Positions 10,807-63,350 of a DNA stretch of 64,000 nt are shown here, piece after piece. Each line of letters starts with the position of its first letter. Within the stretch, counting starts at the first letter, position 1. Both the position numbers and the translations under genes were made by a program. The notes beneath the pieces were generated by a model. That model did not search any database. It was not told the origin of the DNA and was given only the letters and a program-made list of their open reading frames with translations. Where the stretch lies: positions 434,001 to 498,000 of the forward strand of contig JAVLUZ010000617.1 of the NCBI GenBank assembly GCA_036768485.1. The letters run 5' to 3'. The DNA is from Mermis nigrescens (lineage: Eukaryota > Nematoda > Enoplea > Mermithida > Mermithidae).

Positions 10807-11138
10807 AGTAGTATAGCATGGTTCCCTAGCCCGCAAAGCTGCGTCCCTAGCGTGCAACACAAAGTATATTCGGCTATGTTTTGTGTTATAGGCTCCGCCC
10901 CACCCGATCGTAGAGAAGTAGCCTCTCCTGTGTTATAGCATAGGCGGATAAGTGCTCTGGCTTGCACCCTGGCTTTTTCTCAGGGCGCAATAATGAGGCA
11001 TGGGGGAAGGGGAAGCTGGAGCAAACCAATGAATTAACATACATATTGTAAGGTGCATACCTACACGATTAAAAAATTGCTAAACAGTGTGCGTAATAAG
11101 CGCATTGATGAAGCATTTTTTGCAGCTGGTAATATCAT
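10807..11138 (+). repeat. Polinton left terminal inverted repeat
   Basis: It pairs with 20099-20402. Conserved blocks include GTGCAACACAAAGTATAT, CTCTCCTGTGTTATAGCATA, AATTAACATACATATTGTAA and TTTTTTGCAGCTGGTAATAT. This arm has about 20 extra bp near its tip, where TCCCTAGC is duplicated. The arms differ at many positions, so they have diverged since insertion or were not recently homogenised. Confidence 0.9.
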
Positions 11139-11296
11139 TATTGGCAACCTATTTCCATTTTAAGTGCATGTGATGAAATATTTATTTATAGTCTAGGTCC
11201 ACGGTCTACTGCATCTTAATCATTCAAGGGGTAGACCGCCGCTCTAGACTAGAAGTTCAACCCCCAATTTCCAAGCCGTTTTGGACTTGCAAAATC

Positions 11297-11304
11297 TATA
11301 AATA
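11297..11304 (+). promoter_or_regulatory. TATAAATA box for the 11338 gene
   Basis: CTATAAATACT lies 41 bases upstream of the ATG at 11338, just inside the left terminal repeat. It is one of nine similarly placed octamers in the element. Confidence 0.7.
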
Positions 11305-11337: not shown

Positions 11338-11661
11338 ATGGAGGAAATTATCGAACTGAAAAAACGTCCTTTCACGGATGAGGAAAAGAAACCTTATGGG
11401 CGGACAATACGACCGCCTATTGAGTTATGCGGGAGGAATCTGGAGCGTCCCATGTACCCTCTCATGATACATTTATGTCATTTTTGTCAAAAAAATTCGT
11501 CTGAAAAAGACGTTTTTGAAACAAATTCAGGAAAATGGTATTTCAACGTTCAAATGTGCCCAAGATGTTGTGAGTATAATAGGGCATCCCAGGAGGCTGG
11601 GAACATGGTGATTAAGAAATATGTTGCTCAACAGGTTGAAGAAGCGAAAAATGGCTTGTAA
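11338..11661 (+). CDS. Small zinc-ribbon-like protein of the Polinton, unknown function
   Basis: A 107-residue frame starting at the first ATG after a TATAAATA box. The middle shows two Cys pairs, CHFC and CPRC, about 28 residues apart, the layout of a zinc ribbon or treble-clef finger. The C-terminus is a charged helix (QQVEEAKNG). I do not recognise it as a standard Polinton gene. It occupies, with the next gene, the place where the polymerase core would normally lie. Given the TBP gene in the same element, a transcription-factor or DNA-binding role is possible, but that is speculation. Confidence 0.7.
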   Translation: MEEIIELKKRPFTDEEKKPYGRTIRPPIELCGRNLERPMYPLMIHLCHFCQKNSSEKDVFETNSGKWYFNVQMCPRCCEYNRASQEAGNMVIKKYVAQQVEEAKNGL

Positions 11662-11664
11662 AGT

Positions 11665-11672
11665 TATAAATA
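11665..11672 (+). promoter_or_regulatory. TATAAATA box for the 11704 gene
   Basis: GTTATAAATATG begins right after the previous stop codon, 39 bases upstream of the ATG at 11704. Confidence 0.65.
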
Positions 11673-11703: not shown

Positions 11704-12030
11704 ATGAGTTCTCAAGGTGAATTGAGTTTTAATCATTTTGTGACCAAGTTGGCTGATAAAGCCAGTACAAGGTACATCACTTCTCACGATGTACAAAACA
11801 TTGGCTCCTGCTTTTGGAGTTTGCTTTCTGAAGAATACAAAGAAAATCGCAAAAGCCTCGATAATCGGAAAGCATTTTGGAATTTTGCGCTTTATGTGAA
11901 ACGATGCCTAATAAATCGTGAAATCGAGCCTATTTTAGATTTATGGCAAGATTTCGATCAAAATGGCAAAAATACATGGGAAAGCATGTATGAAAATTGC
12001 CTAAACGAGCGAGTTAGTCGTGTATTATAA
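11704..12030 (+). CDS. Hypothetical 108-residue Polinton protein
   Basis: Intact frame with its own TATA box; no recognised domain. The composition suggests an all-helical soluble protein rich in Trp, Asn and charged residues (e.g. KAFWNFALYVKRCL, ILDLWQDFDQNGKNTWE). It has no signal peptide or membrane segment. It lies convergent to the PolB N-terminal gene, separated by about 160 bases with two hairpins. It could be an accessory or anti-host-defence gene; nothing in the sequence decides this. Confidence 0.65.
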   Translation: MSSQGELSFNHFVTKLADKASTRYITSHDVQNIGSCFWSLLSEEYKENRKSLDNRKAFWNFALYVKRCLINREIEPILDLWQDFDQNGKNTWESMYENCLNERVSRVL

Positions 12031-12187: not shown

Positions 12188-12961
12188 CTAGGGCTTCTCA
12201 GGCATTTTTGTTATTAGATCATAATGATTATTAGCAGCGTGCAAGTGAATTACTTTCTCAGCCTCAGGCCCTTGAAAGTACAAAATATTGCCATGATAAA
12301 CTTTTATTTGGTAGTCTGGCACCAGACTCTTTTGAATTTTGTCTATAGCTTCAAGTCCATATTTCTCGTCATTAATGCTTAGATCAGCTTTGTGCATCAG
12401 CTCTAATGCAAGTTGCTTTTGCAGAGTGTGCCGTCCTTTGTCACCTTTCCGAACAGATTCCCACTTAGGGCAGTTGTCTAGCTTTGCTATACCTGTTACA
12501 ACAGCTCTGGCTAATGATAAATTATCGTTTGATGTGATTTTAATATATGCCCCACCATTTTTGCAAAAGTCACCTACTTCAAAGTCATAACCGGTACCCA
12601 TTTGGGGTTTTTTGTCCACCAGAACTACTTTGAAAGTCAAGTCTTCACTTAAACAAAAGTCTTTTTGGGACTGAGCCACCTTTTCTATAATACTCAAAAC
12701 CTTGTCAGCATTTATGTATTGACGTTGAGTGAATGGTACTAACACAGGCGTATAGAGGCTTGGCTGTCTAATTTCAATGCCTACCATACTGTCATAAGGA
12801 CAGCCACGCAACATCAGGTTAATAGCTTTTTCAAAAATCTGTTCGAAAATCTCAAAGAGATTAGGGCATTTCTTGAAACGCAACAAAAATGCCTTAGCGG
12901 TTGTCCTAAACCTACGAACAGAAATGTGTGGGAGCTCATGTACTTCAAAGTACTGCTCCAT
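12188..12961 (-). CDS. Stand-alone N-terminal domain of Polinton DNA polymerase B (OTU-like)
   Basis: 257 residues from the ATG at 12961. It resembles the long region that precedes the zinc finger, exonuclease and polymerase domains in Polinton PolB: VRRFRTTAKAFLLRF near the start, TSNDNLSLARAVVTGIA in the middle (about 143-159), and NNHYDLITKMP at the end. The frame stops exactly where the zinc finger would begin, and no exonuclease or polymerase motif exists elsewhere in the element. The DNL-x-L-x-RA ... NHYD pattern looks like an OTU-type cysteine protease; the position I expect to be Cys is Ser149, with Asp146 and His246 kept. That part is inference. The gene has its own TATAAATA box 33 bases upstream and an intact frame, so it seems retained rather than decaying. 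Its loss of the polymerase makes the element dependent on another polymerase. Confidence 0.78.
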   Translation of the reverse strand: MEQYFEVHELPHISVRRFRTTAKAFLLRFKKCPNLFEIFEQIFEKAINLMLRGCPYDSMVGIEIRQPSLYTPVLVPFTQRQYINADKVLSIIEKVAQSQKDFCLSEDLTFKVVLVDKKPQMGTGYDFEVGDFCKNGGAYIKITSNDNLSLARAVVTGIAKLDNCPKWESVRKGDKGRHTLQKQLALELMHKADLSINDEKYGLEAIDKIQKSLVPDYQIKVYHGNILYFQGPEAEKVIHLHAANNHYDLITKMPEKP

Positions 12962-12993
12962 TTTCAAATTAAAACTACATACTTACTAATCGT

Positions 12994-13001
12994 TATTTAT
13001 A
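12994..13001 (-). promoter_or_regulatory. TATAAATA box for the PolB N-domain gene
   Basis: Minus-strand CTATAAATAA, 33-40 bases upstream of the ATG at 12961. Confidence 0.68.
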
Positions 13002-13033
13002 GACAGAATGATGTTAATAAATAGATGGACTGT

Positions 13034-13050: not shown

Positions 13051-14109
13051 ATGGAAAAAGTGTTAAAGCACATATATTACGACCCTAAAACGGGATATAG
13101 TAGCGTGGAACAGCTATATGAGAGGGCTAAAAAAGTAAAGCCAAAAATAGACCGGTCCTACGTGAAACAATGGTTGGAAAAGCAGCCCACCTACACGTTA
13201 CACAAACCCGCCCTCAAGAGATATTCTCGAAATAAAGTGTTAGTAAGTAGCATTGATGAGCAATGGCAATGTGATATTGTAGATCTGCAGTCCTTAAGCA
13301 AGTTTAACGATAATTTTAAGTATCTCTTGAATTGCATAGACATATTTTCAAAATACGCATGGTCCATCCCTTTGAAATCTAAAAGTTCAAAAGATGTTCT
13401 GACCGCTTTTCAAAGCATTTTGCATTCATCAAATCGAAAACCGTACAAGCTGCAAACAGACGCAGGGACCGAATTTACAAACAAAGAATTTCAAAAATTT
13501 CTTAAATCTGAATCTATCAATTTTTTCACGACTAAAAGCGAAATGAAGGCTAGCGTAGTTGAACGTTTTAATCGCACGCTTAAAGAACGTATGTGGCGGT
13601 ACTTCACCAAGAGCAATTCATATAAATTTATTGACGTATTACCCGACTTGATGAAAAACTATAATCACTCCAAGCATCGTACGATAGGTACCTCGCCAGC
13701 TAATGTTACAGTTAAAAATGAGACGGAAATTTTAAATAAAGCATTTAGGATTGATAAACAGAACGTTGTTTTTAAATTTAATATTGGTGATAAAGTCCGA
13801 CTGAGTAAAGTTAAGCGCGCTTTTGAGAAAGGATTTTGGCCCAACTGGACAGAGGAGTTTTTCATAATTAAGGAGAGGTTTGCTCGCACACCGCCCGTTT
13901 ACGTTTTAGAAGACCAAATGGGCGAAAAAGTTGAGGGTATTTTTTACGAACCTGAACTGCAAAAAATTGATATATCCTCGGATGACTTGTTTATTGTTGA
14001 AAAGATTTTGAAAACGCGTAAGAAAGGCAATAAAACTGATTATTTAGTGCGCTGGCGAGGGTACCCAGAAAAGTTTGATTCCTGGGTCTCAAACCTGATA
14101 AAGTTGTAA
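13051..14109 (+). CDS. Polinton integrase (retroviral-type, with chromodomain)
   Basis: 352 residues. It inserts the linear element into host DNA by DDE chemistry. An N-terminal helical region (about 1-60) contains RSYVKQWL. The rve core shows Asp75 (QCDIVD), Asp137 (QTDAGTEF) and Glu171 (VVERFNRT), so all three metal-binding residues are present. An SH3-like barrel follows (about 255-305, FNIGDKVRLSK). A C-terminal chromodomain (about 313-350, VEKILKTRKKGNKTDYLVRW then RGYPEKFDSW) keeps its aromatic residues and may steer integration to methylated histone. The length is typical of Polinton integrases. It is divergent from the PolB N-domain gene and convergent with the TBP gene, with a tandem-repeat spacer between. 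Confidence 0.95.
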   Translation: MEKVLKHIYYDPKTGYSSVEQLYERAKKVKPKIDRSYVKQWLEKQPTYTLHKPALKRYSRNKVLVSSIDEQWQCDIVDLQSLSKFNDNFKYLLNCIDIFSKYAWSIPLKSKSSKDVLTAFQSILHSSNRKPYKLQTDAGTEFTNKEFQKFLKSESINFFTTKSEMKASVVERFNRTLKERMWRYFTKSNSYKFIDVLPDLMKNYNHSKHRTIGTSPANVTVKNETEILNKAFRIDKQNVVFKFNIGDKVRLSKVKRAFEKGFWPNWTEEFFIIKERFARTPPVYVLEDQMGEKVEGIFYEPELQKIDISSDDLFIVEKILKTRKKGNKTDYLVRWRGYPEKFDSWVSNLIKL

Positions 14110-14138
14110 ACGTCTAAAGGCCAGATTTTTACACTTTG

Positions 14139-14427
14139 CAATATTTTTTGTAAAGTTTGGGATATTTTTTGTAAAGTTTGGAAATTTTTTTGTAAAATTT
14201 GGAATATTTTTTGTAAAGTTTGGAATTTTTTTTGTAAAATTTGGAATATTTTTTGTAAAGTTTGGAATTAATTTTACGTGCTTAAGCATAGTACTTTTGC
14301 AAAGTTTGGAATATTTTTTGTAAAATTTGGAATATTTTTTGTAAAGTTTGGAATATTTTTTGTAAAGTTTGGAATATTTTTTGTAAAGTTTGGAAATTGT
14401 TTTGTAGTTTTGTAAAATTTGGAATAT
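14139..14427. repeat. 21-bp tandem repeat between convergent integrase and TBP genes
   Basis: About a dozen units of GGAATATTTTTTGTAAAG preceded by TTT, interrupted once by a unique 30-bp spacer near 14270-14300. The T-runs recur with a two-turn period, so the DNA may be bent. Units differ mainly by A/G at one base. Confidence 0.9.
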
Positions 14428-14945
14428 TACGTATCTAAGTTGCATTTCTCAAGCATTGTTGAAACTATTTTATATGCTATATGCAACTCATGCTTGTGTT
14501 TTGCACCTGTGAGAATCATTTTCCCACTTGTAAAGAGTAAAAAGGTCACTGTTCTAAATTTGTATACTAATCCGGGAAATAATTCTACTTCATACATGCA
14601 TTTCCTTTTCACCAGCTCATAAAACTTACAAAGATCAATGCGATATCCCAAGTTAGCTGAGCCAACAAACAGCACTGGCTTTATTTTCAACATGGAATTC
14701 TCCATCTTCAGTATATAAATGAATGTCTTTATCGTATTTTCGCCTTCTTGCGTAGTTTTAGCTCCAACACATACAATTTTACCCGACTTGAAAATCAGCA
14801 ATGTTGCCTGAGGTAATCGAAATATGATGCCTGGAAATTTCGAGCGATTGTATTGCGCAGTATTTGGCAATTTAGGGTAGATATCATCTAGATTCAGCGT
14901 ATTTGGTAGTGCTGTAGTCAGCACAATGTTCTGTATAGTTACCAT
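14427..14945 (-). CDS. TATA-binding-protein (TBP) homologue encoded by the Polinton
   Basis: 172 residues forming two TBP core repeats and almost nothing else. Repeat 1 (about 4-80) reads IQNIVLTTAL ... FPGIIF ... LLIFKSGKIVCVGAK. Repeat 2 (about 90-167) reads VGSANL ... YEVELFPGLVYKF ... FLLFTSGKMILTGAK. These are the signature strands of the saddle that binds TATA DNA in the minor groove. The four DNA-kinking Phe positions are present as Phe37, Phe52, Phe123 and Phe138. In both repeats the Phe-to-Phe spacing is 15 instead of the usual 17, so both stirrup loops are shortened by two residues, which may change TFIIA/TFIIB contacts. The variable N-terminal tail of cellular TBPs is absent. No intron is seen, and the frame is intact. 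Its own TATA box faces that of the ATPase. TBP homologues are known in giant DNA viruses; I know of none in a described Polinton. Confidence 0.88.
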   Translation of the reverse strand: MVTIQNIVLTTALPNTLNLDDIYPKLPNTAQYNRSKFPGIIFRLPQATLLIFKSGKIVCVGAKTTQEGENTIKTFIYILKMENSMLKIKPVLFVGSANLGYRIDLCKFYELVKRKCMYEVELFPGLVYKFRTVTFLLFTSGKMILTGAKHKHELHIAYKIVSTMLEKCNLDT

Positions 14946-14949
14946 TTTC

Positions 14950-14957
14950 TATAAATA
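14950..14957 (+). promoter_or_regulatory. TATAAATA box for the packaging ATPase
   Basis: CTATAAATACT 41 bases upstream of the ATG at 14991; it begins 5 bases past the TBP start codon on the opposite strand. Confidence 0.72.
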
Positions 14958-14973
14958 CTTCATGATAAACTTA

Positions 14974-14981
14974 TATTTATA
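14974..14981 (-). promoter_or_regulatory. TATAAATA box for the TBP gene
   Basis: Minus-strand TATAAATATAAG, 29-36 bases upstream of the TBP ATG (14945). Its position raises the possibility that TBP controls its own gene. Confidence 0.7.
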
Positions 14982-14990
14982 CCTATAACC

Positions 14991-15641
14991 ATGATGTTCC
15001 AACATCCTTTCACCTGCCTTGTTTCAGGACCAACTAAGTCTGGCAAAACAACATTTGTCACGCGATTAATTGAAAAAAGAGCACACTTGATTGATATTAA
15101 AATCAAAAAGATTTGGTGGTGCTTTGCAGAAAATCAGCCTCTTTATAAAAAATTAAATGATGTTTTATTTATAGAAGGGCTTCCTGATTTTAATTACTTG
15201 AAACAATTCAGTCATGTGCCACAACTTTTGATTCTCGATGATCTTATGCAACAGAGCAAGGGTAATGCCCAGATTGTTCAACTTTTTACGAGGAGTTGTC
15301 ATCATTGGAACATTAGCATTATACACATTGTTCAAAACGTTTTCTTTGATGGTCTAAGAACTTCACGCATCAACTCTGATTATATAGTTTTATTCAAACA
15401 CCCTGCTGATCAGCTACAGGCACAAATGCTGTCTAGGCAGCTCTATCCTGCCAACGCTAAATATTTTCTAGAAGCCTATTCAGATGCTACTTCTCAGCCA
15501 CATGGTTACCTTTTAATTGATCTAACTCAAAATACTAGAGATGAGCTCAGGCTTAAAACAAATATTTTTAGCCCTCATCCAACTGTTTATGTGCAAAAAT
15601 CTATAAATACTAGTAGAGACATTGCAACAAAAAATGGGTAA
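14991..15641 (+). CDS. Genome-packaging ATPase (A32/FtsK-HerA type)
   Basis: 216 residues (a second ATG follows at once). The N-terminus MMFQHPFTCLVSGPTKSGKT carries the Walker A motif (residues 13-20), and LLILDDL at 79-85 is Walker B. This is the size and architecture of Polinton and virophage packaging ATPases, which pump the genome into the capsid. The frame overlaps the next gene by 8 bases, and that gene's TATA box lies within its 3' end. It heads the run of virion genes on the plus strand. Confidence 0.92.
   Translation: MMFQHPFTCLVSGPTKSGKTTFVTRLIEKRAHLIDIKIKKIWWCFAENQPLYKKLNDVLFIEGLPDFNYLKQFSHVPQLLILDDLMQQSKGNAQIVQLFTRSCHHWNISIIHIVQNVFFDGLRTSRINSDYIVLFKHPADQLQAQMLSRQLYPANAKYFLEAYSDATSQPHGYLLIDLTQNTRDELRLKTNIFSPHPTVYVQKSINTSRDIATKNG
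15602..15609 (+). promoter_or_regulatory. TATAAATA box inside the ATPase 3' end
   Basis: CTATAAATACTAG 32 bases upstream of the ATG at 15634. Confidence 0.68.
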
Positions 15642-15984
15642 AGAACGATTAACACGCAATATTGGTTGTTTACATCTCCTAAGTCAAGCAAAAAAACCTC
15701 AAAGAACCGCTATTATAAATACTGCCAGCAAAGATCAAATCCTTTGTCTCTGTGACTGTGCAAACAACTTTCTGAATGGTAATATTCCTTTTGCTGAGAA
15801 GGATATAAATAAACTTCGAAGATATCAGAATCAAATAAGATACCTGGCAAAGAATAGGCAGGCAACTACAAAACAAAAGAAAGATATTATAATACAGGAA
15901 GGTGGTTTCCTTCCTCTTTTACTTACTCCTATACTTACAATAGCTGGTAGTTTGTTAGCTGATGCAATAGTTGGTAGAAAATGA
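15634..15984 (+). CDS. Small Polinton/adintovirus conserved protein with hydrophobic C-terminus (core/pX-like)
   Basis: 116 residues from ATG 15634. A basic N-terminal half contains a CLCDCANNFLNGNIPF block, followed by a Lys/Arg-rich middle and a glycine-led hydrophobic tail (GGFLPLLLTPILTIAGSLLA). This layout recurs next to the packaging ATPase in animal Polintons and adintoviruses, where it is compared with adenovirus core or membrane-active peptides. Likely a minor virion component able to bind DNA or membrane; the exact role is unknown. Its stop overlaps the next start in the pattern ATGA. Confidence 0.75.
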   Translation: MGKERLTRNIGCLHLLSQAKKPQRTAIINTASKDQILCLCDCANNFLNGNIPFAEKDINKLRRYQNQIRYLAKNRQATTKQKKDIIIQEGGFLPLLLTPILTIAGSLLADAIVGRK

Positions 15985-16547
15985 AACATACTGAAAAGAT
16001 GATTCTTATACCTGCTGAAATCAGTGAGCGGACTAAACCTATTGATGTTGTGCTAGATTCCTTGGATAATAAAATGCAAAAAGTTTTGCATAGCAAAAGT
16101 GTAGCTCCTGAAATAAAACTCATGAAATACAATCAGGCGCTTAACAGATTTAAACGACTATATGAACAAAAGCAGCAGCCATATAGAGCTAGTATAGTTA
16201 AAGATGCAAAAAATGCTTTGAGTGATGAAGATGTGCTCGTTGGTATGCCAAAAAATCAGATTCCAAAGGCCAAACTCCTTCTTCACTACATTCGTACAAA
16301 TCCATTTATTGAAATTGAGCCTGATGGCGAGCTTGTGATAGATGGCAATAAAATTGAAGGCTCAAACATTACAGATTTAGTTAATGATCTTGCACGTGAG
16401 CGTAAGAAAATAAGTAGGCATCCTGGCACAAAAGAATTGCTGAAAGTGTTTAATCGCACAAATGTTCCACTGGAAAGTATAGCAAATAGACAAGGTAAGG
16501 AGATTTTTGCTGCAGGTAGTGAATTCGACTGGGATGAAAGTCTATAA
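15981..16547 (+). CDS. Conserved hypothetical Polinton protein, 188 residues
   Basis: Start codon overlaps the previous stop (ATGA), and there is no close TATAAATA box: the nearest, at 15804, is about 177 bases upstream and inside the previous gene. It may be translated from the upstream transcript by reinitiation. The protein is charged and helical (KQPYRASIVKDAKNALSD, PKAKLLLHYIRTNP) and ends in an acidic FDWDESL. Similar proteins lie at this position in other Polintons; function unknown, possibly assembly or a scaffold. Confidence 0.72.
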   Translation: MKHTEKMILIPAEISERTKPIDVVLDSLDNKMQKVLHSKSVAPEIKLMKYNQALNRFKRLYEQKQQPYRASIVKDAKNALSDEDVLVGMPKNQIPKAKLLLHYIRTNPFIEIEPDGELVIDGNKIEGSNITDLVNDLARERKKISRHPGTKELLKVFNRTNVPLESIANRQGKEIFAAGSEFDWDESL

Positions 16548-16550
16548 ATA
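16543..16550 (+). promoter_or_regulatory. TATAAATA box for the 16588 gene
   Basis: CTATAAATACTT overlaps the end of the previous frame, 45 bases upstream of the ATG at 16588. Confidence 0.68.
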
Positions 16551-16587: not shown

Positions 16588-17031
16588 ATGCACGTTCAAT
16601 TCAATCCTAACGATTACAACATTTGGTTGGACTATTACACAGGGCAGGCTGCCCAAACAGGCTATGGGTTGGAAGGGTATAAAGGCATCCCATACCAGCG
16701 GGGCGTGGGTCTTGGCAGCTTTTTTCGTTCGCTTTTCAGAATGGCAGTCCCAGTTTTGCAGTCAATTGGTAAGCAAGTTGGAAAACATGCTCTAGTTGCA
16801 GGTTCAAACATAGCGTCTGACTTGGCCCAAGGAAAACCGCTTTTTGAGTCAACTAAAGAACACTCAAAGCGAGAAGCTGCACAACTTTTTGATGAAGCCT
16901 CTCATGCCCTTCAGCAGCAGCAAGGAGAGGGTCTTGGTAGTCGCCCAAAGTCTATAAATACTAGCATGATTGATGCTTTTTCGAAACAAAAAAATGGCTC
17001 TCGTAAACGGAAAATCTATTCCCAGTACTAA
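16588..17031 (+). CDS. Polinton minor virion protein (adenovirus pVI/pX-like)
   Basis: 147 residues from the ATG at 16588; earlier in-frame codons precede the TATA box and were not used. The middle reads RGVGLGSFFRSLFRMAVPVL followed by GKQVGKHALVAGSNIASDL, an amphipathic membrane-active segment found in adenovirus-like minor proteins and in animal Polintons just before the major capsid gene. The C-terminus is basic. The 3' end overlaps the capsid gene by 38 bases in another frame. Probably packaged and helps membrane escape; that role is taken from relatives. Confidence 0.75.
   Translation: MHVQFNPNDYNIWLDYYTGQAAQTGYGLEGYKGIPYQRGVGLGSFFRSLFRMAVPVLQSIGKQVGKHALVAGSNIASDLAQGKPLFESTKEHSKREAAQLFDEASHALQQQQGEGLGSRPKSINTSMIDAFSKQKNGSRKRKIYSQY
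16953..16960 (+). promoter_or_regulatory. TATAAATA box for the major capsid gene
   Basis: CTATAAATACTAG 41 bases upstream of the capsid ATG at 16994, inside the previous coding frame. Confidence 0.72.
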
Positions 17032-18286
17032 AACTGAATTGGACCTTTTCACGGTCCCTCCTACTCAAGTAGTGATAAAACGCGGTTTTTGGCATGAAAT
17101 TCAACCAACAAATCCTATTACCAATGAGGGGCCCTATGAATTTAGAGTACCTCCTGATCCACATTATATTCAGCTCAATAAAAACTACATTTATATGCTA
17201 CTGAGAATCAAAAAACCAGTTGTTGCTGCTGGAGCAGCAGTGCCTGACTATGCGCCTATCAATCTTATTGGTAAGACTTTCTTCAAGCAAGTAAAATGCT
17301 TTTTAGGAGGCAAATTAGTTTTTGACAGCTCTGATAAATATGCATATAGATCATATTTCGAAACTGAATTGAATTATGGGTACGATGCCAAACATTCACA
17401 CTTGCAATCTGCGCTGTACTTTCATGAAGGTGGAGGCGATGTTGACACAAAAGAGAATGAAGCTTTCAAGAAACGTTCAAAAATGTTCAAAGATGAAAAT
17501 GTTGTGGAAGTCGCGGCCCCACTGCACATTGACATGTTCTTGCAAGACAGATATTTAGTTAATTTTACCGATTTCCGCCTAGAATTACACAGAAATAATA
17601 ATGCATTTGTTTTGCAGTGCTTTGAGGATGTCAGCCTTGACTTAAAAGTCTCCCAAATGAAATTATTTATTCGAAAAGTTGAGGTTTTGGACACTGTGAA
17701 TTTAGCCCTTGAGCAAACAATGCTTTCATATACAGCAAAATATCCCATAAGGCGTGTAGCTTTGACTAATTTGCACATTTCAAATCCTGCGAGAGAAACG
17801 CCCAATTATACATTGTTCACTGGTCAGCTGCCTAGGCGTATAGTGTTTGCCTGTGTTGAAGGCAGTGCTTATCGAGGCAACTTGGCAAAATCGCCATTCA
17901 ACTTCAAACCGTTCAGCATAAATGATGTAAAAGTAACGTGTGGAGGTATAACATATCCTGCTTACCCACTCAGCATTTCATTTAAACATGACAGGTACTT
18001 GCAAGCTTATACTCAGATGTTTGATGCATTAGATATTGGGCACGAAGGTAATTTTATTAGCAGAGAAGATTTTAAAACAAGTCACTGCTTCTTTGTGTTC
18101 GATTTGACCCCTGATGCAGATGATGGAGGACACTGGGACCTAGTTCGTGAAGGAACAACGAGCATCGCTGTTAGGTTTTCTGAAAATTTGCCAGATTCTG
18201 GCATTGAAATCATTATATATGCTGAATTTGATAACTTAATAATGATTGATAAAAATCGAAACACGTTTCATGACTATGATGCATAA
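16994..18286 (+). CDS. Major capsid protein (double jelly-roll, hexon-like)
   Basis: 430 residues from ATG 16994, in a context (AAAAAATGG) like that of neighbouring starts. Conserved blocks include TELDLFTVPPTQ near the start, a YIQLNKNYIYMLLRI strand, FFKQVKCFLGGKLV and YAYRSYFETELNYG. These define the animal Polinton/adintovirus capsid family often listed in genomes as an F54H12.2-like protein. It forms the icosahedral shell with the minor capsid protein encoded two genes on. The frame is intact, and the protease gene starts 3 bases after its stop. The double jelly-roll assignment is family knowledge. Confidence 0.88.
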   Translation: MALVNGKSIPSTKTELDLFTVPPTQVVIKRGFWHEIQPTNPITNEGPYEFRVPPDPHYIQLNKNYIYMLLRIKKPVVAAGAAVPDYAPINLIGKTFFKQVKCFLGGKLVFDSSDKYAYRSYFETELNYGYDAKHSHLQSALYFHEGGGDVDTKENEAFKKRSKMFKDENVVEVAAPLHIDMFLQDRYLVNFTDFRLELHRNNNAFVLQCFEDVSLDLKVSQMKLFIRKVEVLDTVNLALEQTMLSYTAKYPIRRVALTNLHISNPARETPNYTLFTGQLPRRIVFACVEGSAYRGNLAKSPFNFKPFSINDVKVTCGGITYPAYPLSISFKHDRYLQAYTQMFDALDIGHEGNFISREDFKTSHCFFVFDLTPDADDGGHWDLVREGTTSIAVRFSENLPDSGIEIIIYAEFDNLIMIDKNRNTFHDYDA

Positions 18287-18288
18287 AC

Positions 18289-18705
18289 ATGAACACTATT
18301 GAAATATTCAAAATTCTCAGACATGATAATATATTTGCAGGCGTTTTCCCCATAGATCTTCTGCCACCTATAAAAAATTACCCTGCGGCTCTGGTTGTAA
18401 ATTTGGACTCCAGTAAGGAACCAGGATCGCACTGGGTCGCAATTTATTTCCAAAATAAGAAGCATTGCGACTATTTTGACAGCTATGGGTTAGAACCAAA
18501 TATTCAATTACATCAATACATTTCTGATAATGCGCTCTCATTTACATACAATAATATGCAAGTACAAGGGCTTTTTTCAATTAGCTGTGGTCATATGTGT
18601 ATCTACTTTTTGGTCTGCATGAGCCAAGGCATAAGTTTCACAAACATTGTTCTGTCTATGCTCAGTAAAAAAATTAATAAATACTTTAATAAACTAGAAT
18701 TATAA
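18289..18705 (+). CDS. Adenain-like maturation cysteine protease
   Basis: 138 residues, shorter than adenovirus protease (about 200). His48 (GSHWVAIYF), an acidic residue at Asp64 (DYFDSYG), Gln93 and Cys100 (SISCGHMC) fit the C5/Ulp1 triad; the seven-residue Gln-to-Cys spacing equals that of adenain. It should cleave virion precursors during maturation. It follows the capsid stop by 2 bases and precedes the minor capsid gene by 2 bases, so the three are probably one transcript or use weak internal signals. Confidence 0.9.
   Translation: MNTIEIFKILRHDNIFAGVFPIDLLPPIKNYPAALVVNLDSSKEPGSHWVAIYFQNKKHCDYFDSYGLEPNIQLHQYISDNALSFTYNNMQVQGLFSISCGHMCIYFLVCMSQGISFTNIVLSMLSKKINKYFNKLEL
18675..18684 (+). 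promoter_or_regulatory. Variant TATA-like box before the minor capsid gene
   Basis: TAATAAATAC about 33 bases upstream of the ATG at 18708; a one-base variant of the octamer seen elsewhere in the element. Confidence 0.35.
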
Positions 18706-18707
18706 AC

Positions 18708-19484
18708 ATGGATACAAAACAGTTTTACGTAACGCTTCCGAGCAATTCCCAAGAAACAAATACTGCAGCCACATTTGTTACCAATCTGCCTAGACAAATC
18801 GCATTAACTGGTGACTGGGATGTTGGGTTATCCGAAATAATTTATGCAAATACATGGCACAATGTTGCCGAGGAGCAGAATATGATACAATTTTACGATT
18901 TAAAAAATAATGTTCGAATAAAAATGCTTATTCCTCGAGCAAGATATCTAAATATACATGATCTTGTTAAAACAATCAGTGAGGGAATAAAAATGGTTAG
19001 TTTGAAAGAAAAATTTGAATACATGCAATATTTTGGTATAAAGTATGATGAAAATGGAAAATTTTGTCACTTAACAATCAATACTGAATATATTCGAAGT
19101 GTAAAGCTGACAAAGCATTTAATGTATATGCTAGGATTTCTAGAAAGTCAGCTTAGCGATATAAATTATACTGTCGCACAAGAATTAATCATAGCTGCCC
19201 ATCATTCTCCTGACATGCTGGGTGGAATGCATAATTTTTACGTGTATTGTGATATAGTTGAACCTCAAATCGTTGGAAATGTTTTTGCACCACTTCTGCA
19301 GGTTGTGAATATAGAAGGAAAATATATGGATATTGTTAATCATGCATATATTACTCCACATTATATACCTGTGCTCAAAAAATCATTCAATACCATTGAA
19401 GTGAACATTAAAAGTGATCAAGATAAACCTGTGCCTTTTGAATTTGGCAAGACTATAGTTAAATTGCATTTTAGACGCCAGTAG
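18708..19484 (+). CDS. Minor capsid (penton, single jelly-roll) protein
   Basis: 258 residues. The N-terminus reads KQFYVTLPSNSQETNTAATF then TNLPRQIALTGDWDVGLSEI and YANTWHNV, the hallmark of the Polinton minor capsid protein (vertex penton). It works with the major capsid protein to close the shell. Intact, tightly packed behind the protease gene. Confidence 0.85.
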   Translation: MDTKQFYVTLPSNSQETNTAATFVTNLPRQIALTGDWDVGLSEIIYANTWHNVAEEQNMIQFYDLKNNVRIKMLIPRARYLNIHDLVKTISEGIKMVSLKEKFEYMQYFGIKYDENGKFCHLTINTEYIRSVKLTKHLMYMLGFLESQLSDINYTVAQELIIAAHHSPDMLGGMHNFYVYCDIVEPQIVGNVFAPLLQVVNIEGKYMDIVNHAYITPHYIPVLKKSFNTIEVNIKSDQDKPVPFEFGKTIVKLHFRRQ

Positions 19485-19486
19485 GT

Positions 19487-19494
19487 TATAAATA
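19487..19494 (+). promoter_or_regulatory. TATAAATA box for the membrane protein gene
   Basis: GTTATAAATACA 35 bases upstream of the ATG at 19522, directly after the previous stop. Confidence 0.68.
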
Positions 19495-19521: not shown

Positions 19522-19974
19522 ATGATTTTCTTGCTAGTGGTTTTGCATTTTACATACGGGATTGACGCATACTGTGATGATTATGCGAATGAGTCTACGG
19601 TAGTGTGTCATAATTTAGCAGACTATAGTAGGCTTCCAAGATCAGTCCAAAACATGATTTTGAGAGACAGCTGTGATTTTCAAGTTTCCGATTGGAAAAA
19701 TTTGACAACATGCTTACCAAAACTTGAGTCTATGAAATTTGTGCCTAAATGTAAAAGCTGTTTGAAAATTGATGAGCATTTTAATGGAATAAAAATTGAA
19801 GGCAGGTGTTTGGAAAGCGATATAAAATGCAGACATAAAGAAGATTTGAATATCATTTCAAATGAGATTTTGAGTTGTATTGCAATGTTATGCACTCTAA
19901 CCATCCTCTACATTATTCGCTTTATTAAAAATGATATTTTAAAGCATCATGCGGCAGTCAAAATAGCAATATAG
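19522..19974 (+). CDS. Small secreted-type membrane protein of the Polinton
   Basis: 150 residues. A signal peptide (MIFLLVVLHFTYGIDA) leads a Cys-rich ectodomain with about ten cysteines and two N-glycosylation sites (NES, NLT). A C-terminal hydrophobic segment (CIAMLCTLTILYIIRFI, about residues 117-133) and a short basic tail follow. This is a type I membrane protein layout. I recognise no family. In a capsid-encoding element it could act in cell entry, release or host interaction, but nothing in the sequence fixes this. Confidence 0.75.
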   Translation: MIFLLVVLHFTYGIDAYCDDYANESTVVCHNLADYSRLPRSVQNMILRDSCDFQVSDWKNLTTCLPKLESMKFVPKCKSCLKIDEHFNGIKIEGRCLESDIKCRHKEDLNIISNEILSCIAMLCTLTILYIIRFIKNDILKHHAAVKIAI

Positions 19975-19999: not shown

Positions 20000-20099
20000 C
20001 TTATTATAAATTCGCTGCCAATGCGCTTATTATATTCATCATGTTTCAGTCTATGTAGCTTCGCCAGTAATCCTTATTATAAATTCGCTGCCAATGCGC
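20000..20099 (+). repeat. 27-bp direct repeat next to the right terminal repeat
   Basis: CTTATTATAAATTCGCTGCC plus AATGCGC occurs at 20000-20026 and again at 20073-20099; partial copies of AATGCGC lie between and after. The second copy abuts the terminal repeat. Confidence 0.85.
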
Positions 20100-20402
20100 G
20101 ATATTACCAGCTGCAAAAAATGCTTCGACAATGCGCGTTATTACGCACACTGTTTCGCCAATTTTTTAATCGTGTAGGTATGCACCTTACAATATGTATG
20201 TTAATTCATTGGCTTGCTCAGCTTCCCCATGCCTCATCATTGCGCCCTGAGAGAAAAGCCAGGGCGCAAGCCAGGGCGCTACTCCGCCTATGCTATAACA
20301 CAGGAGAGGCTGCTGCTCTGCGATCGGGTGGGCGGGGCCTATAACACAAAACATAGCTGTATATACTTTGTGTTGCACCCTAGGGACACAGGCTATACTA
20401 CT
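20099..20402 (-). repeat. Polinton right terminal inverted repeat
   Basis: Inverse of 10807-11138; see that arm for shared blocks. It ends GCTATACTACT at 20402, immediately followed by CTTTATAATTTCAG, which is the middle of a hAT-type MITE. Confidence 0.9.
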
Positions 20403-24495: not shown

Positions 24496-26289
24496 GTAAA
24501 TAAATATAGATATGCATATATAAACAAAAGTATAAATGTTTATAGGTAAGCAAAGAAACCGATTTTTAGACAACTTGGCATTATGTATGTGGCCTGTTGC
24601 ATCATTGAACGAACTTTCGGGCTATCTATGTTACTAACGTTTGAAATGTTTACTTGGTCTATCGATATGAGTAGTCATAAATTTTGTGTAATTATTGCAG
24701 CATAGGATTCCATAGGTTAAGTGGGTGGTGCAGTCGTAGGTGGGCAAGTTAGGGGCAGCTAGAGGGGGTCAAATCCAAAATCGGTCAAATATCAAATGGC
24801 GGTCATCATAACACGCCTTAGATTACCAGTCAAAATATCACGATCTTGCTTCAACCGCTTAAAATACCATTCTTGTTGATCCTCTAAATAACACAGCTTA
24901 ATTTCTATTTTATTTATTTTGTTATCATGCTGGAATAGTTTGAAAAATATCTTAATTAAACGTGTAAATTCGTTCGAGCGCTTTAAAAAAATTTTTGATT
25001 GTTGTTTCTGGCCTTGATTTTATCCCTTTTATGTTATGCTTGTATGTCTTTGGGGTGTAGAAGATCGACCACGCACCTTACTGGGAATTTTGAAAAATGG
25101 AAAAGATGGGGGAGATGGAGAGACCAGAATTAAAAAGCGGAAAATATTCTGGGGAAAGTATGGCAAAATGTAGGCCAGAAATAATTGAAAATCAACAATT
25201 TTCTGCAAGATTGCGTGACATTGGCCTGAAATTGTACATTATCATAGTTTTATGCCGGTTTACATCTATACCAGGTTTTTAGGCTATTTTGCCTCAAAAA
25301 AGTTCTGGCTGACCGCCCAAGGCCCGCCATGCTGTGCAGCTAATGCATGGTCTAGTGTAGACTAGATCGTAAAGCCCGACCACGCGCAGATCTGCTTACT
25401 AGTATATACGTATAGTCTGTTTCACGAAATCTTGTGCATGAATTACGATTCTTGAATCGATGTTAATCGATTATGCATAGTAATTGATAAGCACATGAAG
25501 TTCGACTGTGCAGAGTTGTTGTATACAATAAGCTGCCTAGAAATCGCTTTTGTATCTGCTCGCGTGATCGCTGAAAATTGATTTTCAGTTTTCGTGAAAT
25601 GGACTATAGTCGTTACACAAGGGCATAGGGTAGGGTGAGAGGGGGTATTATCCCTAACTAAGGTTTCCGAATATCAGGTACTGTCAGGCGATTTCGAGAA
25701 AATGGAAAGTGCTGCAAAACAATTTTAGAGCTTACTGCGGAAAAAAGGCCAAAAATTCTACCCGAAACAGAATAACAAATATCATATTTTTTCGGCGCTT
25801 CGCGCTGTATTGACAAATGTGTTGTGTTTTTCATTCACCATTCTTCGATTTCGCCTTCCCTCTGGCCACCTCTTCCTTGTCCATTTATGATAGTCGCTTT
25901 TTTGTAACTAGGCGAGATCTTGGTCCGAGTGAATTCGAAATTCTGACTTCTCGAATCATCGACCGCAGCGTACGACCTTTATTCCCAAAAGGTTTCTGTC
26001 ACGACCTCCAATTGTCATGCAACGCTTTATCGTTGGATCAGTCCGGGGATCCAGTTGTGGCCACTATCAATGCCGCTTCGACGGCTCTTCTTTTGTCAGA
26101 CATTCCTTGGCGTGGTCCGGTCGCAGCTGTGCGTCTTGCCTGCGATCCTGACCAGCCGAACCGATGCTTGATCAATCCTACCAGGTTATTTTTAAGTTTA
26201 ATTTAATTAATTTATATTTTGATTCAACTTAAATTTATAAATTTAATACAATAATAATACAATACAACGCATTTATTGTATTATTATTG

Positions 26290-61290: not shown

Positions 61291-63350
61291 CTCTAAAATC
61301 CCACAATTGTACTCACTTAATGAAATTTGTCCCAAAAAACGACGAAAAATAAAACCTTGGATCTCAGATGATACCCTAAAGCTAGTTGAAGAACGCGCAA
61401 AAATCAAGAATATTAATCACAAGCTGTACCTTTTCCTCAATAGACAAATTAAACGGCAGCTTAAGACGGATAAGGACGCTTGGTGGAATGTGAAAGCCCA
61501 AGAAATGGAAATAGCCAGCAAGAACCATGATTCGCGCTTACTCTACAGCATCCTGCGAAGTTGTAATGGAAAGTTTAAAGCAACGAGTTCAAACCTCAAA
61601 GATCACCATGGCAACCCCATCAAATCACTAACGGGTAAACTAGATAGATGGAAAGAACATTTTAGCCAATTGCTTAACCGCCCACACCCCACAAGCCTAG
61701 ACAAAAGGCTGATGGAGAACGTGGATCTGAAATTTTCAAGCACAATTAATGATCATCCTCCAACTGAAGAGGAAATCAGAATATCAATAAAAAAGACTCA
61801 AGAACCGGAAGGCACCAGGTGTGGACAACATCCCTGCTGAAGCTTTAAAAGCTGGAGGAGAGGCAATAGTCAAACAACTAAAAGGCGTATACTCGACCAT
61901 CTGGAACAAAGGCACAGTGCCTCAAGACTTTAAGGACTCAATTATCGTACCAATTCACAAAAAGGGAGACCCAGCTACCTGCAAAAACTATAGAGGAATA
62001 AGCCTGTTAGCAACATCTGGAAAACTTCTGACCTCTATAATCCGATCCAGACTACTCATAGGAACTAACTGCAGGGAAAAGCAGGCTGGTTTCAGGCCTG
62101 GAAGAGGTTGCACCGACCAAATATTCACACTTAGGCAACTAACCGAATCGCGCCTACGCTGTAAAAAGGACACATTCTTGCTATTTGTGGATTTTGCATG
62201 CGCATTCGATAGCATAGACCATTCGTCCTTATGGTGCGCCCTCAAAAATGAAATGAATCAATCCCACACTTAGTATTCTCAAGGCCTTCTACGACGGTGG
62301 AATGAGCAGGGCAAAATATTTGGGAAATGTGTCCTCACCATTCTCAATTACCACTGGCGTTAAACAGGGATGCATTATTTCGCCTATGTTGTTCAACGTG
62401 ACTATGGACTGGATTCTCAGAAAAACTTTCGACGACATGCCAGGTGTACAAGTCGGAGCTAATTTGTCTCTCACTGATTTAGTATACGCCGACGACATTG
62501 TATTTTTTGCCGAAACAGCTCAAGCCGCACAAAATACCTTGAATGCGTTACAAGTGAATGCCAACAAACTCGGCCTGACAATAAACAGCGAAAAAACTAA
62601 ATTTATTCTCACGGGCACACAACCGGCCATATTACAACTTGATGGCAAACCAATCGAAAGGGTGGATGCATTTAAATATTTGGGATCGGTTATCGATAGT
62701 GGACGAATAGTAGCAACTAGCGACATCAAAAACCGCATTGGGAATGCCATGTCAGCATTCACTTCACTAAAGAAGTGTTTGTGGAACCAAAAAGACGTTA
62801 CCATCACAACAAAAATGAGAATTTTTAATGCTTCCATCCGGACAATTTTGATGTACGGCTCTGAGTCGTGGACTCTGCTTAAAAGCGATATGCACATATT
62901 AGAACGTTTTCAACTTCGATGTCTTCGCAGCATTTTGCACATAAATCTACGAGACCGATGGGAGAATGAAACTGTGCTGCAAGTATGTAAAAACCAAACC
63001 AGTATCGAACTCTACTTAAAGCGACAGCGGCTCAGGTGGTTTGGACATGTCTGCCGCATGAACAACACCCGACTACCCTATCAGTTAATGAACTCCAAGC
63101 GGCCCACGGGGTGGAAAATCTCTCGAGACGCCCCTAAGAAAACATGGTTGACACAAGTGGCACAAGATGTTCAGCCGCTCCACTTCTCAATCATTGATGC
63201 CCAACAAGCAGCCTTGAACCGCGATCAATGGCGTGCTGTAATCCGTGATACACTGCCTTTGGCCGCCACAGCTCAACGGTCGTTGCCCTACCAACGTCAT
63301 TGAAGCTTATGGTGTTTAAGTCAAGTAAGTCAAGTAAGTCAAGTAAGTCA
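61291..63350 (+). pseudogene. RTE/BovB-like non-LTR retrotransposon, 5' truncated, frameshifted
   Basis: Encodes the linker and reverse transcriptase of a LINE; the endonuclease is absent. The frame changes near 61810 and near 62240. RT motifs: APGVDNIPAEALKAGGEAIV, NYRGISLLATSGKL, QAGFRPGRGCTDQIF, FVDFACAFDSIDH, GVKQGCIISPMLFN, and the catalytic YADD at 62485-62496. The C-terminal RLRWFGHVCRM is typical of RTE-like elements. The copy ends in short AAGTCAAGT tandem repeats. The RTE/BovB clade is my best reading; a tree is needed to exclude related clades. Confidence 0.88.
63317..63350 (+). repeat. LINE 3' tail microsatellite (AAGTCAAGT)n
   Basis: About four copies of AAGTCAAGT directly after the last LINE codons, the kind of 3' end used by RTE-type elements for priming. 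Confidence 0.8.

Follow-up and report, generated by a model that had tools for sequence, protein, structure and literature searches.

Whether a small mobile element in the genome of the nematode Mermis nigrescens carries a TATA-binding protein (TBP) gene of its own, and what the element might use such a protein for, is the question raised by a stretch of 64,000 nucleotides, here called the window. A preliminary description had placed an intronless two-repeat TBP core on the minus strand at 14427..14945, inside a Polinton and between its integrase and packaging ATPase genes. The reading frame encodes 172 aa with no internal stop, and an N-terminal extension is absent, as had been claimed. Pfam assigned PF00352 (TBP) to the 172-aa product in two stretches, with an E-value of 2.1e-41 and 140.1 bits (cut-off 22.9). 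Among the 36 sequences listed by phmmer against the PDB, 35 were TBPs or fusions holding a TBP (4wzs, counted among these, is not labelled as TBP in the match list), and the 36th was unrelated with an E-value of 0.87. The top match was Sulfolobus 1mp9 (E 5.4e-30), followed by other archaeal and then by eukaryotic TBPs. PHROGs returned no match for the window TBP.

The fold was modeled from an alignment of 30 TBPs that included the 172-aa sequence, and the mean pLDDT of 91 obtained in this way is not independent of the sequence because the input held 29 other TBPs. A single-sequence model reached a pLDDT of 43 and was not used. When the alignment-based model was compared with the PDB by Foldseek at E <= 0.001, ranks 1-44 of 45 were TBP chains, some of them titled by their complex alone, and the saddle fold was matched to TBP chains with TMq values of 0.81-0.90. 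Structure prediction, a check named in the preliminary description, thus returned the TBP fold from a model built on a TBP alignment. Together, the PF00352 match, the PDB matches, and the model bear out the proposed two-repeat protein, and on sequence and predicted fold 14427-14945 encodes a genuine TBP.

The gene lies in an element of about 9.6 kb that is bounded by imperfect terminal inverted repeats of about 310 bp. The left repeat occupies 10807..11154 (+), with the outer end AGTAGTATAG, and the right repeat 20081..20402 (-). Their alignment pairs 10839-11154 with 20391-20081 reversed (316 and 311 bp), while the outermost 32 bp on the left and the outer end on the right were placed by eye. 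A 6-bp target-site duplication was not found by eye in the flanks, which read TGCATG and CTTTAT and are on the left side a microsatellite. Both neighbors of the TBP gene were confirmed: an integrase with an rve core (E 1e-13) and a chromodomain (E 4.7e-9) in Pfam at 13051..14109 (+), and an A32-like packaging ATPase at 14991..15641 (+), so that an uninterrupted reading frame stands between them as described. The integrase and TBP genes converge, and a 21-bp tandem repeat of 12.9 copies (14135..14406) lies between their 3' ends. The match of the ATPase to PF04665 (E 1e-4, 22.3 bits) falls just under the cut-off of 22.8; the protein has 426 relatives at E <= 1e-5, the best of them 76% identical, and some of the 120 relatives listed (47-76% identical) carry PF04665.

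The remaining genes of the element are mostly small. An adenain-like protease at 18289..18705 (+) was identified by PF00770 (25.0 bits, cut-off 21.3), and a possible double jelly-roll capsid protein at 16994..18286 (+) by a weak match to PF21738 (E 0.02, below cut-off), with no PDB match at E <= 1. On the plus strand there are also a 107-aa protein with a CxxC-x23-CxxC pattern (11338..11661), a 108-aa protein without a family (11704..12030), small proteins at 15634..15984 and at 16588..17031, the latter without a family in Pfam, a 188-aa protein (15981..16547), a 258-aa protein with no family match (18708..19484), and a 150-aa protein with a signal-like start and a hydrophobic stretch by eye (19522..19974). 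A 259-aa reading frame on the minus strand (12188..12967) has no Pfam match above cut-off and is taken here to resemble the N-terminal part of PolB from Polintons; no polymerase domain was found in the two further minus-strand reading frames of at least 60 aa beside it. The earlier label "Polinton" therefore holds for the type of the element, but PolB is apparently left only as an N-terminal piece, and a target-site duplication was not seen. Given these two features, this copy is judged from its sequence to be Polinton-type but probably not self-sufficient. Elsewhere in the window, a piece of a mitochondrial-type PNPase reading frame was seen at 25817-26206 (best PDB match PNPT1 with E 2.4e-29, compared with 1.4e-21 for the best bacterial type), which would agree with an animal as host, and reverse transcriptase reading frames with an ISXO2-like transposase piece were seen at 61821-63303 and 277-789. 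Rfam gave 0 matches on the whole window.

A scan of genome contigs with the ATPase alignment led to one further locus, L001, on a separate metagenomic contig of 3352 bp that is filed in a bacterial MAG (Zixiibacteriota), where it is probably mis-binned. Its Polinton-type ATPase is 51% identical to that of the window, and beside it on the minus strand lies a TBP gene truncated by the contig end (PF00352, E 6.6e-38), whose product has the same residue as the window TBP at 45 of 144 aligned positions. Because the contig was found through its ATPase, the L001 TBP is an independent observation, and a second pairing of TBP and ATPase makes an accident of a single insertion unlikely. TBP was present at the only further Polinton-type-ATPase locus seen (1/1), which supports the proposal that TBP is a gene of Polinton-type elements. 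No relatives were found among viral contigs with the TBP, ATPase, and capsid-type proteins as queries, nor with alignments of the ATPase (36 rows), TBP (4 and 30 rows), and 188-aa family (2 rows).

Other parts of the two loci also correspond. The 188-aa protein has a relative in L001 (30% identity, E 2e-22), and a 110-aa reading frame occupies the place that matches the window gene at 15634, by position and by eye. At 744-1226, L001 encodes a weak relative of the window CxxC protein (E 1e-7 in a two-sequence comparison), so that a CxxC-x23-CxxC protein, zinc-ribbon-like by eye, is common to both TBP-bearing loci; neither copy matched the TFIIB family, and the protein could be a partner of TBP. 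A possible short intron with GT...AG borders was seen by eye at L001 792-840. The 3' end of the ATPase gene keeps AAAATCTATAA in both loci, with a differing reading frame over it by eye.

All four Phe residues that are taken here to be the DNA-kinking positions of TBP (37, 52, 123, and 138) are present in the window TBP, exactly where the preliminary description had put them, and Phe also fills these columns in all 26 cellular-type rows, which were picked by the authors from the 120 listed TBP matches and are in some cases of origin not known. Both window repeats count 20 letters from their first Phe up to SGK, whereas the human TBP, one plant TBP, and three archaeal TBPs count 22. In alignment A3 the missing stirrup residues belong to the tip of the loop in each repeat (columns 288-289 and 381-382). 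Repeat-length counts and alignment thus agree with the claim that both stirrups are two residues short at an equivalent place. In the L001 TBP the second stirrup is likewise two residues short and the first is of normal length. Overwriting of one repeat by the other was considered and found unsupported, as 16 of 51 aligned residues are common to the two window repeats, compared with 37 of 75 in Sulfolobus. Among the four Asn/Thr positions that presumably contact the minor groove, N6 and T146 are kept and two are changed (T60 to V, and the C-lobe Asn to L92), changes that may shift the DNA preference of the window TBP.

In PMC7221094, contact with TFIIB is assigned to two glutamates of the C-lobe, and contact with TFIIA, TAF1, Mot1, and NC2 to a cluster of basic residues in the N-lobe. 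With alignment columns matched to the position names of that source by spacing, both glutamates (E119 and E121) are kept in the window TBP, as they are in all 26 cellular-type rows and in the L001 TBP. Three basic H2 positions, spaced by four and invariant in the 26 rows, are kept at one of three in the window TBP and at two of three in L001, and a fourth invariant basic column adjoining the first of them reads T in the window and E in L001. No TFIIB-family match at E <= 1 was obtained in any of the 13 genes of the element, which together with the kept glutamates points to a TBP that borrows the TFIIB of the host. The sequence is best read as a TBP that keeps its TFIIB-contact glutamates and has lost most of its surface for host regulators. 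A different set of partners, as earlier deduced from the short stirrups, would accordingly apply to the mostly lost basic TFIIA/TAF1/Mot1/NC2 surface but not to the glutamates for TFIIB.

A protein search with the window TBP alone gave two matches (P0002 and P0003), and a search with a 4-row TBP alignment gave 5256, of which 120 are listed and, where named, are mostly animal and plant cellular TBPs. Identity of the window TBP to these 120 of 5256 matches ranges from 32 to 38%. The phylogeny suggested in the preliminary description was run with eukaryotic and three archaeal TBPs, and the eukaryotic rows excluded the window TBP from their clade with support of 99/97 and 98/95, a placement that is unsure because its branches are long and the program warns of long branches meeting. 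The L001 TBP fell without resolution among eukaryotic rows and was not joined to the window TBP in the free tree. Forcing the two together lowered the log-likelihood by 9.03 and was not rejected (p-AU 0.151), while a clade of the window TBP, the L001 TBP, and P0002 stood at the edge of rejection (p-AU 0.0475).

The element is rich in TATAAATA, the consensus TATA box, with 13 copies in its 9.6 kb compared with 4 in the remaining 54.4 kb of the window. The extended form TCTATAAATACT occurs five times in the element and nowhere else in the window. Over 500 dinucleotide shuffles of the element, TATAAATA had a mean of 1.19 and a maximum of 5 copies, and TCTATAAATACT never appeared. An exact TATAAATA lies 32-45 nt ahead of the chosen ATG in 9 of 13 genes and the one-mismatch AATAAATA in two more (integrase and 258-aa genes), while no box was found before the 188-aa and protease genes. 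Chosen starts were the second ATG for the genes at 16588 and 16994 and the first ATG after TTG for those at 12961 and 15634. The TCTATAAATACT form precedes the CxxC, ATPase, and capsid-type genes as well as two small genes, and looser boxes precede others.

On the left side of the element, TCTATAAATACT stands at -41 of the 107-aa gene (11297..11304, +), GTTATAAATA at -39 of the 108-aa gene starting at 11704 (11665..11672, +), TCTATAAATA at -40 of ATG 12961 (12994..13001, -), and the one-mismatch box TTAATAAATA at -35 of the integrase gene (13016..13023, +). The TBP and ATPase genes share a gap of 45 bp in which two facing boxes lie 16 bp apart, TTCTATAAATACTT at -41 of the ATPase gene (14950..14957, +) and GGTATAAATATA at -36 of the TBP gene (14974..14981, -). 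Further to the right, AATCTATAAATACT is placed within the ATPase reading frame at -32 of ATG 15634 (15602..15609, +), and AGTCTATAAATACT occurs both at -45 of ATG 16588 (16543..16550, +) and, within the preceding reading frame, at -41 of ATG 16994 (16953..16960, +). The two boxes that fall inside the coding sequence of an upstream gene, in the ATPase tail and ahead of the capsid-type gene, both spell KSINTS. The one-mismatch box TTAATAAATACT is found at -32 of the 258-aa gene (18676..18683, +) and GTTATAAATACA at -35 of the 150-aa gene (19487..19494, +). Four of the 13 TATAAATA copies lie off gene starts, at 11190 (-), 15173 (-), 15714 (+), and 15804 (+).

Boxes were also seen in L001, where TATAAAAG stands at -35 of the ATPase gene and at -43 of the 110-aa gene. 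The latter copy sits within GCAAAATCTATAAA, a string that is also present ahead of the window 107-aa gene and, with one extra A, ahead of the window gene at 15634. Three of five TATAAA copies in L001 lie off gene starts, and no clear box was seen ahead of its TBP, CxxC, and 182-aa genes.

Taken from these sequence features, it is fairly probable that a Polinton-type, adintovirus-like element encodes its own TBP as the promoter-recognition factor for its own TATA boxes. The element TBP would bind these boxes, including those of the TCTATAAATACT form, and its four Phe residues would bend the bound DNA. The kept C-lobe glutamates would recruit TFIIB and hence RNA polymerase II of the host, and the short stirrups and eroded basic helix would free the protein from TFIID, TFIIA, Mot1, and NC2, so that the genes of the element could be switched on regardless of host limits on TBP. 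The 45-bp gap brings the facing boxes so near to each other that two initiation complexes could not assemble at once, and the boxes may therefore switch the element between production of TBP and production of virion parts. A wider form of this reading, which is held more tentatively and at somewhat less than even chances, is a private core-promoter system of the whole lineage that would combine a deep-branching minimal TBP and an extended TATA motif with borrowed host TFIIB and polymerase II, escape from host control of TBP, and the facing-promoter switch.

The boxes themselves permit another user, as the host TBP should bind TATAAATA too, and therefore they do not by themselves prove use of the element TBP. 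They could serve the host TBP, with the element TBP competing with it or titrating TFIIB and so damping host transcription, an explanation that is considered unlikely. It would be in keeping with a box that is the consensus and with the glutamates that a TFIIB decoy requires, but a decoy has no need of the four Phe residues, all of which are kept, and the extended TCTATAAATACT is restricted within the window to the element. The captured protein might instead have no role in transcription and act as a structural bender of DNA in integration, replication, or packaging, for which chances are put at quite low. The position of its gene between those of integrase and ATPase would suit such a role, as would the retention of kinking Phe residues alongside the loss of most regulator surfaces; however, both TFIIB glutamates and the promoter boxes would be left unexplained.

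Two further explanations concern the history of the gene. Domestication of TBP by the host, with the element as a relic, is slightly less probable again: PolB is mostly missing and a target-site duplication was not seen, but the integrase, ATPase, protease, and capsid-type reading frames are open as well, and TBP is thus not singled out. Least credible by far is a recent retrocopy of the host TBP gene dropped into the element, which the preliminary description had named as the finding that would overturn its claim. An uninterrupted reading frame within a mobile element is what such a copy would look like, yet it fails on the 32-38% identity to the 120 matches listed and on the position outside the eukaryotic clade (98/95), and neither the lack of an N-terminal extension nor the second TBP-bearing element, L001, fits with it.

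With Polintons, Mavericks, and adintoviruses the element shares its terminal inverted repeats, rve-chromodomain integrase, A32-like ATPase, adenain-like protease, and possibly its capsid-type protein. It differs from them by the added TBP gene, by a uniform TATA box before most genes, and in this copy by a PolB of which apparently just the N-terminal part is left. A TBP fold encoded by a virus is shared with giant viruses and mirusviruses, whose genomes are far larger than 9.6 kb; the named BFVD matches of the window TBP came from phycodnavirus, mimivirus-like, marseillevirus, and asfarvirus-like sources, below a nameless top match. Within the genome set of PMC10132985, TBP occurs in 59% of mirusviruses and in 0% of Nucleocytoviricota. 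Phycodnaviruses that have TBP as well as TFIIB are reported in PMC4602308, and a green alga has sporadic TBPs in elements of putative mirusvirus origin (PMC10675990). According to PMC7221094, the glutamates for TFIIB are variable among viral TBPs, with about 40% conservation at one, and almost all TBP-bearing viruses have a TFIIB-like protein. In contrast to the viral TBPs covered there, the element TBP keeps both glutamates and is accompanied by no TFIIB-family match in the 13 genes of the element.

The haloarchaeal tailed viruses HRTV-9 and HJTV-2 also have a TBP in their genomes; they differ in their archaeal host, and identity is 28% over 92% of the query or 41% over 37%. In beta- and gammaherpesviruses a protein resembling TBP is paired with a viral core promoter motif of its own to call up host polymerase II; the mimic KSHV ORF24 has 752 residues, binds polymerase II directly, and acts on TATT promoters (PMC7498053). 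Unlike ORF24, the element protein is a true TBP that comprises just the core, and the accompanying boxes are TATAAATA. By analogy, if the element does use its TBP for its own promoters, the protein is best read as comparable in its job to the herpesvirus mimic, and built from a real TBP.

The literature searched, as far as its texts were accessible and without the founding adintovirus paper, gave no report of a TBP for Polintons, adintoviruses, or virophages. This includes the main texts on such elements in PMC11071308, PMC11071296, PMC10120064, PMC12220804, PMC12721341, PMC7805220, PMC8097293, PMC9952930, and PMC8363768. The earlier remark that TBP homologues are known in giant viruses but are not known in described Polintons, adintoviruses, or virophages is consistent with this record. 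TBPs of giant viruses, mirusviruses, and haloarchaeal viruses are already known.

The window protein is a natural TBP that perhaps keeps TFIIB contact without regulator contacts and would be useful for separating the two. Polintons are placed close to the origin of many DNA viruses of eukaryotes, and to our knowledge little is known of the way in which their genes are expressed. With one small protein and one motif, the TBP gene and the boxes that match it offer a direct, testable handle on Polinton gene expression. As the window TBP falls outside the eukaryotic clade, it also bears on the source of giant-virus and mirusvirus TBPs. If the reading is true, few virus-like genomes of eukaryotes that bring a general transcription factor of their own would be smaller than this element, which in the reduced copy seen here measures 9.6 kb.
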